Below the pieces are notes generated by a model. The model did not search any database. It saw only the letters and a list, made by a program, of their open reading frames with translations, and was not told the DNA's origin. Positions 2,775-10,252 of a stretch of 64,000 bases of DNA are shown one piece after another. This DNA comes from a bacterium (GTDB taxonomy: Bacteria; Myxococcota; UBA727; JAUIJE01): assembly GCA_030431455.1 (NCBI GenBank), contig JAUIJE010000001.1:434001-498000 (forward strand), read 5' to 3'. A program made the position numbers and the translations under genes. Positions within the stretch are counted from its first letter, which is position 1, and every line of letters starts with the position of its first letter.

Positions 2775-3896
2775 TCAGCGTTTCTCCAGGTGGCGCTTGA
2801 CCGGGCCGCCGATGTCGTCGGTCAAAATCAGGAACGAGTCGTGGCCTTGCGGGGCGCCGACCTCGACGTAGGTGGTGGGCGCGCCCCCCTCTTGGATGAG
2901 CCGGGCCGCCTCCCGCTGTTGCCACACCGGGAACAAGATGTCGGTGGTGACCCCGATGACCAGCGTGTCGCTCTGGATGCGGGCCGCGCCCTCCTCCAGC
3001 GACGAGAAACCATCGCCGAGGTCGAACAGGTCCATCGCCTTGCTGATGTAGAGATAGCTGTTGGCGTCGTAGGTCCGGGCGAACTTCTCGGCCTGGTATT
3101 CGATGTAGCTCTCGACGGCGAAGTCGGTCCCGAGCTGGGGGGCGCCGGGCTGGCGCGCCCGGCCGAACCGTTCGTTGAGCTCGGGGCCGGACCGGTAGGT
3201 GAGCGTGCCCATGGCCCGGGCCACGCGCATGCCGTCGAGGGGGGCGGGGCCGTCGTAGTAGTGGCCGGCGGCGAAGTGGGGGTCGGCCATCACCGCCCGG
3301 CGCTGGGCATAGCGGGCCGCGATCGACGACGGGTAGCTGCGCGCGGTGGCGGAGATGGACACCGTGCGGGCCACCCGGTCGGGGGCGAGCGCGGACAAGG
3401 CCAGCGATTGCATTCCGCCGAGGGAGCTGCCCACCGACGCGTGCAGGCGCTCGATGCCCATGGCGTCGAGCAGCCGCAGCTGGGCTTGGACCATGTCGAA
3501 CACGGTGATGATCGGGAAGTCGGGCCCGTAGGGCCGGCCGGTGGCGAAGTCCAAGCTGCTCGGTCCGGTGGAGCCAAAACAGCCGCCAAGCACATTGGTG
3601 CACACCACAAAGAAGCGGTCGGTGTCGAGGGCGCGGCCCGGGCCGATGAACGCTTCCCACCAGCCGTTGTTGTCGTTGGCCGCGGTGGAGTGCGCGTGCG
3701 AGGACGCGGAGAGCCCGGTGTGGAGCAGGATGACGTTGTCTTTGGCCGGGCGCAGGGCGCCCCAGGTCTCGTAGGCCAGCTGCAGGCGAGACAGGCTGCC
3801 GCCGTGCTCGAGCCCGAAGGGCTCGTCAGACCGAAAACAAAACGCACCCTTGGGGGCGCGGTCGGAGCACGGACGCTCTTTGAGGGCGACGGCCAT
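2775..3896 (-). CDS. metX: Homoserine O-acetyltransferase
   Basis: A 373-residue alpha/beta-hydrolase-fold acyltransferase that acylates homoserine for methionine synthesis, using acetyl-CoA in most of the family (some members use succinyl-CoA; I cannot exclude that). Diagnostic segments are LAYETWG, NVLGGCFGSTGPSS, the nucleophile elbow GSSLGGMQS (catalytic Ser158), the acid in TTDILFP and the base in GHDSFL. The length fits the family. The start at 3896 is chosen because homology begins there; the frame stays open far upstream but is not MetX-like. It diverges from the sspB-like gene, with 139 bases between. metH in the same window is the last step of the same pathway. Confidence 0.93.
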   Translation of the reverse strand: MAVALKERPCSDRAPKGAFCFRSDEPFGLEHGGSLSRLQLAYETWGALRPAKDNVILLHTGLSASSHAHSTAANDNNGWWEAFIGPGRALDTDRFFVVCTNVLGGCFGSTGPSSLDFATGRPYGPDFPIITVFDMVQAQLRLLDAMGIERLHASVGSSLGGMQSLALSALAPDRVARTVSISATARSYPSSIAARYAQRRAVMADPHFAAGHYYDGPAPLDGMRVARAMGTLTYRSGPELNERFGRARQPGAPQLGTDFAVESYIEYQAEKFARTYDANSYLYISKAMDLFDLGDGFSSLEEGAARIQSDTLVIGVTTDILFPVWQQREAARLIQEGGAPTTYVEVGAPQGHDSFLILTDDIGGPVKRHLEKR

Positions 3897-4035
3897 GCGC
3901 ACATGTTGGCATTCCCGTAAAATGATGCAACGCGGTAAGCGGATCAACGCCAGGCCTGGACGAGACTTCCCGCGCCACGCGGCCCAGGGGGCGCGGGGGC
4001 CAGCGCCAGGCGCGCGGCGGGCCAGAGGAGGACGT

Positions 4036-4635
4036 GTGGCGGAGGACAAAGGGGGCGACGTGGTTTCGTTCGCCGCAAAAAAGGCCGAAGCCGACGCCCA
4101 AGACGCGGCCATCCTCGCGGTCGCGGGGTCTGCCCAGAAGCTCGCGGCCTTCGCCCGGTACATCGAGGACGGCATGGTCATGGTCACCATCGACGCCCGC
4201 CCGGTGGGGGTGAAGGTCCCGGCCCAGTTTCGCGGCAACTGCCAACTCAACTTGAACTTTTCGCACCGGTTTTTTCTCGACGACTTCGAGTACGACGACC
4301 GCGGGGTGCGCGCGTCCCTGTCGTTTTCGGGCACGTCCTCGCTGTGTGACATCCCCTGGCCCGCGGTGTGGATGATCCGCTCCCACGTCACCGGTGAGGT
4401 CGCCCTCGCGCCCGACGACGTGCCCGACGTGCTGCGCACCGACCTGCTCGGCCCCGAGCCCGAATCGGTGACCGAGGCGCCCACCAAAGAAGAGACCCCG
4501 GCCGCCCTGTCCGACACCGCGGAGGTGGGCAGCCAAGACCCCACCGAGACCGCCGACGACGGGGCCGACGACGAGGGGGGCGACGACGAGCCGCCCCGCG
4601 GCCCCCCCAAGCTCACCTTGGTCAAGAGCTCCTAA
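4036..4635 (+). CDS. sspB: SspB-like ClpXP adaptor
   Basis: A 199-residue protein with the SspB fold signature at about residues 48-115: VTIDARPVGVKVPAQ, LNLNFSHRF, ASLSFSGTSSLCDIPWPAVW. SspB tethers ssrA-tagged or other substrates to ClpX for degradation in the cytoplasm. After the domain comes a long acidic linker and then a C-terminal RGPPKLTLVKSS. This matches the ClpX-docking tail of E. coli SspB (ending RPALRVVK, from memory) but with two extra serines. It starts with GTG at 4036, supported by AGAGGAGG just upstream. It converges with the PolX gene 8 bases away. Confidence 0.85.
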   Translation: MAEDKGGDVVSFAAKKAEADAQDAAILAVAGSAQKLAAFARYIEDGMVMVTIDARPVGVKVPAQFRGNCQLNLNFSHRFFLDDFEYDDRGVRASLSFSGTSSLCDIPWPAVWMIRSHVTGEVALAPDDVPDVLRTDLLGPEPESVTEAPTKEETPAALSDTAEVGSQDPTETADDGADDEGGDDEPPRGPPKLTLVKSS

Positions 4636-4643
4636 GGGGGCTT

Positions 4644-6584
4644 CTACCCATCGTCTTCGACGTCGACGATGTCGCTGCTCTCCTCGGGCAGGACCTGGGG
4701 CGAGCCGGTCAACATCAACAGGTTGAACGCGGCTTGCAGCGGGTTGTCTGACAGTTGCATCAGGCCCGCCTCGACCTCGTGGTCGGGCTGGCCCTGCATA
4801 AACTTCTGGATGCGGTCCCGCAGGGCGGGGCTGAGCACCCCGGCCTTCAGCTGCTCGGCAATGTCGTTGCGCACGGGCACGTGGGCCGCGGCCGCGGGCA
4901 CTTCCCCGCGCCGGGTCACGCGGTAGAGCCCCTCGAGGTCCAAGGTGTTGAGCACCCGGGCCCGGGTGGCCCAGCCCCGCCGGGCCACGTAGGTCGCGAA
5001 GCGCAAACCCTCGTCGGACTTGCCCGAGGCGAGCGCGAGCTTGGCCCCGCGCTCGACCAAGCTGCGCACCACCCCCTCGTCGGGGTCCATGCGGTGGTAG
5101 GTCCCGTCGACGTCGACCGCGAGCTTGGCGGCCAAAAACGCTTCAAAGAACTGTGCGCTGGGGGTGCCCGCCCGGCTCTTGCCCTCGTGCCGATCCGACA
5201 GGTGGGCCCAGGCGTCGATCACCCCGTGGTCGGCCGCGGCGGTGAGCGCACGGGTGCGCACCTCATCGTCGTCGGGCACGTCTTGGTCAAAGCGCGCCAC
5301 CACCCAGTCGAAGCCCTCGGTCCAGTCGTCCGGCCGGTTGAGCGCGCCGGCGGCATCGACGGTGAGCAACAGCGTGCTCTTGACCTGGACCGGGGAATGT
5401 TGCTGGACCTGCACCAGGGTGTCGTGAAACGCGACCACCTCCGCCCGCTGGGCGAAGTCCCGCGCGTCCACCCCCACGAACACATGGGACAGGCGCAGGC
5501 GCCGGGCCCGGGCGACCACGTCCTCGATGGCGGCGCGGCTTTTCCCGGCCATGGCCCGCAGGTCGCCGACCAGGCTGGTGGGCTCGACGAGGGCGGGGAG
5601 GGTGCCGGCGTCGGCGGCTTCGATCTCGCCCAGGTTCTCGCGCAGCTCGGGGGGGATGAAGGGCAGGCCCACCGCGCGGAAGATGTCGTTCTCTTCGGGG
5701 CCGGGGGAGATGCGTTTTTCCTCGGGGAGGCGGAAAATGCCGTGGTCCGAGATCTTGAGCTGGCGGCGGTTGGCCCGCAGCCGCATCGCGATGTTGTGGC
5801 CCTGGGAGCCGGTGAAATAGTGCATACCGGCCCCGTACTGTTCGGGCGGGATCACGCGCACATCAAACTGCAGGCCCGGGGCCATGCGCACCGAGGCCCG
5901 GCCTTCGCCGGCGATGTAGACATGCTCGACCATGGGCAGGTGGGCAAAGGTCTCGACGATGCGCCCGCGCTCGGTGGTGGCCACGAGCACGTCGAGGTCC
6001 CCGCAGGTGGCCTTGCGCCGGCGGGCCGAGCCGGTCTGGGTCAAGGCCGCCACCGCGGGGTCGCTCTTGAGCGCGTCGATGACCTCGCCCCCGATGCGCA
6101 ACGCGTCGAACAGGAGCACCCGGTGGCCTTGGCTTTTGTGGATCTCGATGGCGCGCAGGATGTCGGCGGAGGCTTGTTCGGGCAGGCCGGGCAGGCCGAT
6201 GAGCTGGCCGGTGCGGGCGGCGTATTCGAGCTGGTCGACCGACGCGATGCCGAGGTGTTGGAAGACGGTGCGGGCGGTGCGGGCGCCGATGCCCTTGATG
6301 GCCAAAAGCGCGCGAATGCCGGGGGGGAGTTTTTGGCGGAGGCGCTTGTGTTCGGCGCAGGTCCCGGTGCGGAGGATGTCTTTGATCCGGGTGACGCTGC
6401 CTTCGCCGATGTCGTGCAGGCGCTCCAAGGAGCCCGCGGCGAGCATCTCGCTCACCGGGCGGCCGAGGGTCTGGAGTTTTTTCGCGGTGCGCTCGAAGGC
6501 GCGGGCCCGGAAGGGGTCGCCGCCGTCGATGCGCAGCAGCTCCGACATCTCGAGGAACACCTCGGCGATGTCGTCGTTGGTCAT
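4644..6584 (-). CDS. polX: Family X DNA polymerase with degenerate PHP domain
   Basis: A 646-residue bacterial PolX homologue. The N-terminal helix-hairpin-helix region has HDIGEGSVTRI and AIKGIGARTART (about 57-107). The palm motif is intact: TGSARRR at 184-190, CGDLDVL with D196 and D198, and a third Asp in LQFDVRV (D241), so nucleotidyl transfer is expected. The C-terminal PHP nuclease region (about 340-570) has lost the metal-binding His and Asp motifs: where DLHxHT is expected it reads GDLRAMAGKS, and SDAH is replaced by ASGKSDE. About 70 extra C-terminal residues follow. The start codon overlaps the stop of the upstream PolX paralogue as ATGA, so the two are probably translationally coupled. 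Confidence 0.85.
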   Translation of the reverse strand: MTNDDIAEVFLEMSELLRIDGGDPFRARAFERTAKKLQTLGRPVSEMLAAGSLERLHDIGEGSVTRIKDILRTGTCAEHKRLRQKLPPGIRALLAIKGIGARTARTVFQHLGIASVDQLEYAARTGQLIGLPGLPEQASADILRAIEIHKSQGHRVLLFDALRIGGEVIDALKSDPAVAALTQTGSARRRKATCGDLDVLVATTERGRIVETFAHLPMVEHVYIAGEGRASVRMAPGLQFDVRVIPPEQYGAGMHYFTGSQGHNIAMRLRANRRQLKISDHGIFRLPEEKRISPGPEENDIFRAVGLPFIPPELRENLGEIEAADAGTLPALVEPTSLVGDLRAMAGKSRAAIEDVVARARRLRLSHVFVGVDARDFAQRAEVVAFHDTLVQVQQHSPVQVKSTLLLTVDAAGALNRPDDWTEGFDWVVARFDQDVPDDDEVRTRALTAAADHGVIDAWAHLSDRHEGKSRAGTPSAQFFEAFLAAKLAVDVDGTYHRMDPDEGVVRSLVERGAKLALASGKSDEGLRFATYVARRGWATRARVLNTLDLEGLYRVTRRGEVPAAAAHVPVRNDIAEQLKAGVLSPALRDRIQKFMQGQPDHEVEAGLMQLSDNPLQAAFNLLMLTGSPQVLPEESSDIVDVEDDG

Positions 6585-8293
6585 GCCGCGGCGGCCGCGC
6601 GCCGGTCGGCGATCCACTGCTGGAGGGCGTCGAGGGGGCGGCAGTTGAGGATGTCGTCGGGGGAGAGCCCGGCCCGGCGCGCGATGGTGATGCCGTAGTC
6701 GAGGTGGGACAATGCTTCTGTGCTGTGGGCGTCGGCGGCGATGGAGATGAGGATGCCGCGCTCTTTGGCCTGGGCCATGTAGGTCTCGTTGAGGTCGAGG
6801 CGGGCGGGGTGGCTGTTGTGTTCGACACAGGTCCCGGTCTCGGCGCAGGCGGTGAGGAACGCGTCGACGTCGAACTCACTGGGGGCGCGGCCGAGCAGCA
6901 GGCGGCCGGTGGGGTGGCCGATGATGTCGGTGAGGGGGTGGCGCACCGCCGCGAGCATGCGGTCGGTCATCTCCTCGGCGGTGGCCCGGTAGCGCTGGTG
7001 CACCGACGCGATGACCACGTCGAGGGTCTGTAACACCCCGTCGGGGTAATCGAGGGCGCCGTCTTTCAAGATATCGCTCTCGACCCCGAGCAGCACCGGG
7101 CAGCCCTGGTGGTCTTGGTTGAGCGCGTCGACCTCTTGGCGCTGTTTGGCCAGCGCGCCCGCGTCGAGCCCGCCGGCGTAGGCCGCGGTGTGGCTGTGCT
7201 CGGTGATGCCGAGATAGGTCAGGCCCGCGGCCGCGGCCGCGTCGCGCATCTGCACCAGGGTGTGCAGGCCGTCCGAGGCGGTGGTGTGGTTGTGCAACGC
7301 CCCCGCGATGTCTTCGCGGCGGACCAGGCGTGGGCCCGCTTGGCCCTCGACGACGAGCGGCACCGGATCGAGCCAGCGCTCGGGGGGCGCGGGCACAAGC
7401 TCGAGGGCGCGGAACACCTCGTCGACGTCCGCGGCCTCGACCGGGTCTTCGCCGTCGAAAAGCCCGCTTTTGTCGTACACAAAGCCGAGCTCCTCGGCCC
7501 GGGCCACGAGCCGCGCACAAAAGTCCGGCTCGGCCCCGAAGTAGAGCACCGCGGCCATCGCCTGGTCGGCGTCCGGCAGGTGCAACGTCACGTCGAAACC
7601 GTCGAACGTGCCGGTCACGGTGTCGTCCTCGACCTTGGCGTCGTCGAGCAAGGCCGCGAGGGTCTCGCCGTCGGTCCCGGTGCACACCACCCGCAGGCCG
7701 GCCACGGTCTCTTGGCCGCGCCGGAGGGCACCGGACAAATGCAGCTGGGCATCGGGGGCCTTGTCCGCGGCCGCGGCTTGGAGGGTCGCGTACAATGCCA
7801 GTGCATGATCGAGCCGGCGCTTGCCCAAGAACTGCCGCACGGTCTCGATCCCGGCCACGACCTTGTCTTGGGTCTTCTTGCCAAACCCCTTGAGGTCCAC
7901 GAGGCGGTTTTCGTTGCAGGCGTACTCGAGCTCGCCCACCGAGGTCACGCCGAGCTCTTGCCACAGCTGGCGCACCTTCTTGGGGCCGAGGCCCTTGATT
8001 TTGCGCACGTCGAACAGCCCGATGGGGATCTGTTGCTTCATCTCGTCGAGGGGGGCGAAGGCCCCGTCGGTGGCGAGGGCGCGCACCGCTTCTTTGACCT
8101 GCTTGCCAATGTCACGGCGCTTGTCGAGTTCGCCCGACTCGACCATCTCGTCAAACTCCCCTTCGCTGCTGCGCAGGGTCCAGGCCGCGGCGGAAAAGGC
8201 GGGGCCGTTCAGGCCGGTCTCGGGGAGGAGCTCGGCCGCGAACGCGATTTGGCCGAGGGCATCGAGAATCTGTCGTTTGGTCAGGGTGCTCAT
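6581..8293 (-). CDS. PolX paralogue with intact PHP domain and inactivated polymerase palm
   Basis: A 570-residue PolX-type protein of normal family length. HhH motifs are present (IKGLGPKKVRQLW, DLKGFGKKTQDKV). In the palm, the expected GS...GDxD motif reads SGALRRGQETVAGLRV at about 187-202, so both catalytic aspartates are replaced (by Gly and Arg). Only the third Asp (D234, GFDVTL) remains. The PHP phosphoesterase site is complete: HNH at 334-336, D341, EHSH at 365-368, E405, H432, H460, H495, D521 and H523. This predicts a 3'-5' exonuclease or phosphatase without polymerase activity. The start at 8293 fits the family; its TGA overlaps the ATG of the second PolX gene. Confidence 0.85.
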   Translation of the reverse strand: MSTLTKRQILDALGQIAFAAELLPETGLNGPAFSAAAWTLRSSEGEFDEMVESGELDKRRDIGKQVKEAVRALATDGAFAPLDEMKQQIPIGLFDVRKIKGLGPKKVRQLWQELGVTSVGELEYACNENRLVDLKGFGKKTQDKVVAGIETVRQFLGKRRLDHALALYATLQAAAADKAPDAQLHLSGALRRGQETVAGLRVVCTGTDGETLAALLDDAKVEDDTVTGTFDGFDVTLHLPDADQAMAAVLYFGAEPDFCARLVARAEELGFVYDKSGLFDGEDPVEAADVDEVFRALELVPAPPERWLDPVPLVVEGQAGPRLVRREDIAGALHNHTTASDGLHTLVQMRDAAAAAGLTYLGITEHSHTAAYAGGLDAGALAKQRQEVDALNQDHQGCPVLLGVESDILKDGALDYPDGVLQTLDVVIASVHQRYRATAEEMTDRMLAAVRHPLTDIIGHPTGRLLLGRAPSEFDVDAFLTACAETGTCVEHNSHPARLDLNETYMAQAKERGILISIAADAHSTEALSHLDYGITIARRAGLSPDDILNCRPLDALQQWIADRRAAAAA

Positions 8294-8363: not shown

Positions 8364-10136
8364 TCACGGCGCGGGGATGAAGAAGTCGACCAACACCGGG
8401 CGGTGGTCGGACGCTTCTGCGCTCCGGCCGCAGGGCAAGTTGGTGCCGGCTTTGTCGAGGTAGTACCCGGTGGGGGGCTCGTCATCGACGCCATTGTCCG
8501 CGCACGATTCGTAGACCTCGTCGCCCACGGTGGCGAGGTCTTGGTAGAGCACGTAATCGATGCGACGCTCCGACGGGTAGCGGGTGCCGTAGGCGCCCGG
8601 ATCGTCCTCCCAGGTGGCGTCGGCGACGTCGAAGTCATGGGCGGTCAAAAACGGCGCGAACGGGTCGTAGGTGAGGGGCAGGGCCAGGTCGCTGCCGAGG
8701 CTGTAGCTGCCCGGCAGCCCCGGGGGCGGGGCGCTGAAGGTGTTGCCGATGGGGGAGCCGTCGAGCTCCTCGTTGAAGTCCCCGAGCACGATGATGCCCT
8801 CGCCGGGGTAGGCGGCTTCGATCTCGTCGACGATCTGGCCGGCGCGCACGGCCTCGACGTGTTTGCGAAACTCGTCGGTGTCGTCGAAGCCGCTCTTGAG
8901 GTGAAGCACCAGCACGTGCACGTAGGCGGCACCGGGGATGATCTCGGCCCGGACGTGCACGATGTCGCGGCCGGTCTCGTTGGCGGTGCCGTCGACGGAG
9001 ATGTTGGGGGAGTTGCGCGAGGCCTTGAGCACCAAGGGGTAGCGGCTGATGCAGGCGTTGCTCAGGCCGCCGGCCATGGCGGTGGTGATCGAGCCTTGGA
9101 AGCTGTCGACGTAGCCAAGGTCGGCGGCGATGGACAAGAGATCGGCGGAGTCGTCGTTGGTGATCTCTTCGAGGCAGAGGATGTCAGCATCGATGCGGGC
9201 GAACACGTCGCGCAGGGCGTCGTTCTGCAGGGTGCCGGCCGCGCCCACCGTCTCGGTGTTGTAGGCCGCGACCCGCAATGTCACCGCATCGCAGATCGCG
9301 ATCCCGTTGCAGTCGAAATCGTCACAGTCGAAATAGGTGTCGCCGTCGTTGTCCACCCCGTCGCTGCAGGCCGCGTCGTTGTCTTCGTTGGGCTGGCACA
9401 CGCTGGCCACGTCACAGTCGAAGTCGTCACAGTCGAAGTAGGTGTCGCCGTCGTTGTCCACCCCGTCGCTGCAGGTGTCGTTGGCGTCCTCGGTGGTCTT
9501 GCACACCGACACCAGCGCGCAGGCGGTGTCCTCGCAATCGGTCGCGTTGTTGTCGTCGTTGTCGATGCCGTCGGTGCACAGGTCGAAGGTCACCTCGGGC
9601 ACGCCGCAGTACCAAACGTCACAGTCAAAATCGTCGCAGTCAAAGTACCCGTCCCCGTCGTTGTCGTACCCGTCCTTGCAGGCCTCGTCGTTGTCCTCGT
9701 CGAGCTGACAGTGCAAAACCGCCCCGCAGTCAAAGTCCTCACAGTCGACGTACGTGTCGCCGTCGTTGTCGATCTGGTCGGTACACGCCTCAAACGTGTT
9801 CTCGGCGTCGCCGTCCCCATCCCCATCACCATCGCCATCCCCGTCGCCATCCCCGTCGCCATCCCCATCGCCATCCCCATCACCATCCCCGTCCCCGTCC
9901 CCGTCCCCGTCGCCATCCCCATCGCCTGAAGAACCGGAGTCGGCGGCTCCGCCGTCCGACGGTTCTTCCAAGCCGCCGTCAGGCGGCCAGTCGCCATCCC
10001 CATCACCATCACCATCACCATCACCATCGCCGTCGCCATCCCCGTCCCCGGCGGTGTCCGTGGGACAGGCCACCCCCCACACGGGGGCCGAGAGCAACAA
10101 CAGCGAACACAACAGCGAGCGGGTGGGGCGGAGCAT
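8364..10136 (-). CDS. Asp-Gly-tethered lipoprotein with Asp-rich repeats and an endonuclease/exonuclease/phosphatase domain
   Basis: A 590-residue surface or periplasmic lipoprotein: the signal ends WGVAC (lipobox VAC), followed by two Asp-Gly tracts separated by a short acidic spacer. Five imperfect repeats of the form CxDGxDNDGDxxxDCxDxxC follow; they resemble putative metal-binding motifs seen in myxobacterial surface proteins. The C-terminal half is an EEP-fold phosphodiesterase or nuclease with intact motifs: VAAYNTE, CLEEITND, VLHLKS, GDFNEE, RIDYVLY and SDHRPVLVDFF. It may degrade extracellular DNA or a phosphoester; the substrate is not determinable. The start at 10136 places the signal peptide correctly. 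Confidence 0.85.
   Translation of the reverse strand: MLRPTRSLLCSLLLLSAPVWGVACPTDTAGDGDGDGDGDGDGDGDGDGDWPPDGGLEEPSDGGAADSGSSGDGDGDGDGDGDGDGDGDGDGDGDGDGDGDGDGDGDGDGDAENTFEACTDQIDNDGDTYVDCEDFDCGAVLHCQLDEDNDEACKDGYDNDGDGYFDCDDFDCDVWYCGVPEVTFDLCTDGIDNDDNNATDCEDTACALVSVCKTTEDANDTCSDGVDNDGDTYFDCDDFDCDVASVCQPNEDNDAACSDGVDNDGDTYFDCDDFDCNGIAICDAVTLRVAAYNTETVGAAGTLQNDALRDVFARIDADILCLEEITNDDSADLLSIAADLGYVDSFQGSITTAMAGGLSNACISRYPLVLKASRNSPNISVDGTANETGRDIVHVRAEIIPGAAYVHVLVLHLKSGFDDTDEFRKHVEAVRAGQIVDEIEAAYPGEGIIVLGDFNEELDGSPIGNTFSAPPPGLPGSYSLGSDLALPLTYDPFAPFLTAHDFDVADATWEDDPGAYGTRYPSERRIDYVLYQDLATVGDEVYESCADNGVDDEPPTGYYLDKAGTNLPCGRSAEASDHRPVLVDFFIPAP
9812..10055 (-). repeat. Two Asp-Gly hexanucleotide microsatellite tracts
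   Basis: Within the lipoprotein gene, a GAYGGN-type hexamer encodes two Asp-Gly runs, about 9812-9926 and about 10007-10055, split by a Pro/Glu/Ser-rich spacer. The unit varies at third positions, so it is an imperfect microsatellite that could still change length by slippage. It acts as a flexible acidic linker after the lipidated Cys. Confidence 0.85.
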
Positions 10137-10252
10137 GACGCCTCCTGGCAGGGGCCGGGCGCGAGGGGGAAAGAGCGCGCGCACGACCAGACCCTCAGCG
10201 GTACCAAGGCCAGGGGGGGCCAATATGGGCGTTTTGACCGACGCTCAAACGT

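Follow-up and report, generated by a model that had tools for sequence, protein, structure and literature searches.

Overlapping genes for two PolX proteins that have lost opposite active sites in a member of the Myxococcota

The 64,000-nucleotide stretch of myxococcotal DNA analysed here (the window) carries two overlapping PolX genes on the minus strand whose products have lost opposite active sites. In the upstream protein, P1, the polymerase palm is dead and the PHP nuclease site is intact; in the downstream protein, P2, the palm is intact and the PHP site is dead. By their placement in sequence trees the two come from different old PolX lineages, and similar reciprocal losses recur in other genomes. 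Our preferred explanation, to which we assign a probability of roughly 0.6, is that one repair function has been split in trans, with P1 trimming, P2 filling gaps and the gene overlap matching their levels. The pair is laid out as follows.

6581..8293, minus strand: P1, palm-dead, PHP-intact PolX of 570 aa, upstream gene of the pair
4644..6584, minus strand: P2, palm-intact, PHP-dead PolX of 646 aa, downstream gene of the pair
6581..6584, minus strand: four-base overlap, ATGA, in which the stop of P1 meets the start of P2, read in the sequence

Both genes (P1 8293-6581, P2 6584-4644) are full-length open frames with normal codon-position GC, which reaches 0.90 at the third position in P1 and 0.92 in P2. 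These properties rule out a sequencing or assembly artefact, as does a second family from this order, in which a palm-dead and a PHP-dead PolX also occur as a pair but with other residues at the lost sites. The ATGA overlap would fit coupled translation of the two proteins. A promoter scan gave nothing above chance, and a PHROGs search returned no match. Seventy bases upstream of P1 and on the same strand (8364-10223, minus) lies a gene for a PF03372 endonuclease/exonuclease/phosphatase-family protein with long GDGDGD repeats, which is probably exported. The convergent neighbour (3850-4635, plus) is similar to SspB, stringent starvation protein B, with a score just under the Pfam cut-off.

We read the active sites of both proteins by alignment with two PolX structures, from Thermus (3AU2) and Deinococcus (2W9M). 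The AlphaFold models of both match PDB 3AU6, with TM scores of 0.80 for P1 and 0.73/0.83 for P2. Neither protein reaches the 426-bit cut-off of the NCBIfam PolX equivalog NF006375 (336 bits for P1 and 205 bits for P2). Two features define the state of P1.

7691..7735, minus strand: degenerate palm motif of P1, residues 187-201, SGALRRGQETVAGLR, from alignment with Thermus and Deinococcus PolX
6614..7318, minus strand: PHP nuclease domain of P1, nine of nine metal ligands in the alignment

In the P1 palm, GDLD has become AGLR, with G199 and R201 substituting for the first two catalytic aspartates. The third position is ambiguous, being T236, or D234 if the alignment is moved by two columns. The dNTP-binding motifs of the fingers are degraded from GAGLQYLTGSKAHS to MAAVLYFGAEPDFC. 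The PHP ligand string, HHHEHHEDH, keeps all nine residues and matches the noncanonical PolX consensus. By these sequence features P1 is a member of the published palm-dead, exonuclease-only PolX, of which the Deinococcus protein is an efficient Mn-dependent exonuclease without polymerase activity (PMC9226535). Four features of P2 present the reverse picture.

5979..6035, minus strand: intact palm motif of P2, TGSARRRKATCGDLDVLVA, with D196 and D198, from alignment
5862..5864, minus strand: third catalytic aspartate of P2, D241, from alignment
4917..5585, minus strand: PHP-like domain of P2, metal site gone, predicted fold with pLDDT mostly 85-96
4707..4865, minus strand: C-terminal tail of P2, a predicted four-helix mini-domain, from structure prediction and comparison

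P2 retains the palm triad D196, D198 and D241 and most of the dNTP pocket: by the criteria of PMC9226535, GSARR, R189, the YF steric gate, GS and N264 are all present. A Gln stands where most canonical PolX carry the dNTP-binding Lys, a basic residue, and we count this against a divided repair function. In the PHP domain the ligand string reads RM-LDHDGS, with seven of nine ligands lost, one Glu replaced by Asp and one His kept, and the eight- or nine-ligand metal site of canonical bifunctional PolX is gone. Inspection of the PHP motifs in three relatives ruled out nearby replacement of the lost ligands; in P2 these motifs are GDLRAMAG, VGVDA, TLLLTVD, VARFD, AWAHLSD, VDVD and LASGKSD. The alignments thus bear out the original prediction as to the overlap and both active-site states, and equivalent residues close by, which it had named as a way to be wrong, are not found in the P2 PHP motifs.

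Sequence constraint across the domains mirrors these losses. The genome G008, from the same order but the other family, carries a counterpart of each protein. Between P1 and its counterpart, identity is 22% in the palm and 25% in the fingers, but 55% in the PHP domain; between P2 and its counterpart, it is 51%, 57% and 24%, respectively. A control pair of bifunctional PolX, from Plesiocystis and Planctomycetota, is 61% identical in the palm and 55% in the PHP domain. The drop in P2 to 24%, confined to the PHP domain, bears on whether that domain could still be a nuclease with a rearranged metal site. Its fold is retained in prediction, and other PolX are reported whose ligand set is altered in part, HHPERHEDQ for example (PMC9226535). 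Seven ligands are nevertheless lost, and the residues at these positions differ from one relative to the next (RM-LDHDGS, GRPEQREAT, HRPESRERQ). We consider a surviving P2 nuclease very unlikely.

P1 and P2 are only 26% identical over their full length. In a 52-row tree they fall on opposite sides of the deepest PolX split (100/100). In AU tests, placing P1, P2 and their counterparts in one clade costs 116 log units (p-AU 9.8e-7), and a clade of P1 and P2 alone gives p = 3e-55. P2 groups with the PHP-dead copies of G008 and G010 (99/96), and this group is nested within the bifunctional PolX of Enhygromyxa, Plesiocystis, a Planctomycetota MAG and a Myxococcales MAG (100/99). P1, in a larger tree, is placed in a clade of 15 palm-dead rows that includes the PolX of Deinococcus and of rhizobia (99/97). 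The original prediction had supposed that a bifunctional PolX was duplicated in tandem and that each copy then suffered complementary losses in place. Adjacent homologous genes with reciprocal losses are what such a history would leave, but the tree and the AU test rule it out under the model used, each copy is more closely related to PolX from other genomes, and we leave it a negligible probability. An unrelated origin of the copies holds only in part: judged from these trees, P1 and P2 are homologous yet not duplicates of each other, and are members of two old PolX lineages.

The larger tree also places P1 nearer to a palm-dead PolX from G351, a genome of a different phylum-level set, to which it is 50% identical, than to the G008 copy. 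P1 and the G008 palm-dead copy may therefore not be strict orthologs, and P1 may have been acquired by transfer. Counting the fewest changes on the tree, the palm was lost at least three times and the PHP site at least five times, the fifth PHP loss being the partly altered HHREHHEDR copy of G535. The root split divides the two kinds, every palm-dead copy falling to one side and every PHP-dead copy to the other. G535 itself carries at least three PolX genes (L193, L194, L195), one a tailed bifunctional form, one with the HHREHHEDR PHP domain and one cut by a contig end.

Within the same order, G008 carries its two copies on separate contigs, the palm-dead one lying upstream of coaE. G010 combines a PHP-dead PolX with the terminal part of a PHP-competent one, which sits at a contig edge. 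We also searched 379 genomes of the group around Plesiocystis and read the matches, which revealed four further genomes (G492, G567, G569 and G539), each pairing a DDD / VGAV.RG.. copy with a palm-dead / HHHEHHEDH copy. On the tree the PHP-dead copies of these four are far removed from P2 (100/100), and the reciprocal state therefore arose separately there. On the complete chromosome of G539 the two genes are about 398 kb apart. Other combinations also occur, with a bifunctional PolX accompanied by a PHP-dead PolX in G200, G201, G202, G289 and G504 and by a palm-dead PolX in G416, G437, G452 and G495. No other tandem PolX arrangement was present among the loci read or the two-copy genomes, and linkage was seen in the window's genome only. 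The reciprocal loss is thus repeated, with the genes unlinked, in one genome of the same order and in four of a separate group.

Several unusual forms of PolX appeared among the genomes read. In G497 (L327:1036-2755) the polymerase half and the PHP half occupy two successive overlapping frames, through either a frame break or fission of the gene. For G500 and G393 (L313:1397-2428; L314:1358-2407) the sole PolX seen is about 345 aa long; its palm is intact, but it lacks the PHP domain entirely. Many myxobacterial genomes also encode a protein of about 300-400 aa that matches only the N-terminal HhH part of PolX (e.g., G092:C2:191591-192154).

We then counted how the two kinds of loss co-occur in 147 genomes, 18 with two PolX copies read and 129 with one; two-copy genomes were read preferentially in the 379-genome set, where three candidates were scored per genome, so that second copies were possibly missed, and contig ends truncate some of the copies. 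PolX proteins without any PHP domain (G500, G393) stood outside the count. A degenerate PHP domain was found in 12 genomes, all 12 of them two-copy genomes with a PHP-competent partner, an association that spans related genomes and represents about four to five independent losses. Among the single-copy genomes the PHP site is intact in 128 of 129, the exception (G070) being an apparent frame break in a fragmented contig. Palm-dead PolX is solitary in 28 of the same 129.

The solitary palm-dead copies suggest that proteins of the P1 type can work without a partner. Together with the lack of conserved linkage, they favour a reading in which P1 and P2 are separate repair enzymes in one operon, P1 a double-strand-break-end exonuclease and P2 a gap-filling polymerase, sharing no pathway step or hand-off. 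PHP-dead PolX, however, was never seen alone in this count, and in the window the overlap would couple both genes. In addition, Ku (PF02735) and LigD_N (PF13298) gave no match in the window's genome, which is 96.9% complete; this weakens an end-joining role for P1, and we rejected a link between the pair and NHEJ on the same grounds. Overall, separate enzymes seem rather unlikely to us. Both Ku and LigD_N are present in G008, and on a Mesorhizobium plasmid (L154) a palm-dead PolX directly follows ligD, in agreement with the published end-joining association.

Both dead domains keep a confident predicted fold, and most of the P2 clade has the four-helix tail, predicted to follow a disordered linker. 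With the ATGA overlap, these features would suit a stable P1-P2 heterodimer docked through the tail, an element that the P2 lineage has conserved, or through the dead domains. The structure models are single-chain predictions, from which contact is not readable. The tail also occurs in bifunctional PolX from Enhygromyxa, Plesiocystis and a Planctomycetota MAG. No palm-dead partner turned up in Enhygromyxa or Plesiocystis, so docking of P1 was not what the tail arose for, and the idea of it as a docking adaptation is weakened accordingly. The independent PHP-dead copies of G492, G567, G569 and G539, at 554-560 aa, are too short to carry it, and comparable pairs elsewhere are unlinked. We judge a stable heterodimer quite unlikely.

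We therefore return to a single function divided between P1 and P2, which might operate as follows. P1, as an exonuclease-only PolX, would trim or sanitise 3' ends at its PHP site, possibly also cleaving abasic sites, while its dead polymerase half would hold the DNA. The 3' end would then pass to P2 by release and rebinding, and P2, as a polymerase-only PolX, would fill the short gap. A stable complex would be unnecessary: in Bacillus PolX the 3' end moves intermolecularly between the nuclease and polymerase sites (PMC6616362), so two proteins could work together without one. Deletion of the PHP domain greatly impairs gap filling by the Bacillus enzyme (PMC6616362), which could explain why P2 has kept its dead PHP fold, presumably as a structural part. 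Taken with the exonuclease activity of the palm-dead Deinococcus protein, these findings would account for the folded state of both dead domains. The gene overlap would hold both proteins at matched levels.

As to the order of events, we infer that P1 and P2 were brought together from different old PolX lineages. Palm loss would have come first, in the P1 lineage; P2 could have lost its own nuclease afterwards because P1 supplied one. Against a divided function stands the linkage, which by sequence is seen in the window's genome only, the G008 and G539 pairs being unlinked.

A bolder version, which we hold only tentatively and think somewhat improbable, is that in several Myxococcota-related lineages PolX has come to work only as two proteins. 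One would be nuclease-only and the other polymerase-only, both would stem from different ancient lineages and depend on each other, the nuclease would be lost only where another PolX supplies it, and in the window the two would form one translational unit, maybe a complex. More generally, the pattern suggests a rule by which PHP activity is indispensable and is lost only if another PolX provides it. The repeated reciprocal losses form a natural separation-of-function set for asking whether trimming and gap filling must share one polypeptide.

Palm-dead, exonuclease-only PolX is known, having been described in 2022; its overlapped PHP-dead, palm-intact partner seems to be new, and in the literature searched we found no description of such a protein paired or overlapped with a palm-dead PolX. 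P1 resembles the noncanonical PolX of PMC9226535 (Deinococcus radiodurans, PDB 2W9M) in its lost palm triad, degraded fingers pocket and full set of PHP ligands, and it belongs to the same large clade. Unlike there, its gene is overlapped by one for a PolX that is polymerase-competent by sequence and nuclease-dead; that study had already noted noncanonical PolX alongside canonical PolX, but not alongside PHP-dead PolX. The window's genome, lacking Ku and LigD_N, also differs from those of NHEJ-associated noncanonical PolX. P2, in turn, is like the canonical bifunctional PolX of Thermus thermophilus (3AU2/3AU6) and Bacillus subtilis in domain order, palm triad, YF steric gate and fold, and differs in the loss of the PHP metal site and in its extra C-terminal four-helix tail. 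The PolX2 and PolX-like groups of a 2026 survey (PMC12926913) miss whole domains, whereas P1 and P2 do not. Both share the architecture of PolX1, in which the same survey found the PHP site conserved in 95% of proteins and the polymerase site in 75%, and P2 represents the rare reverse case.
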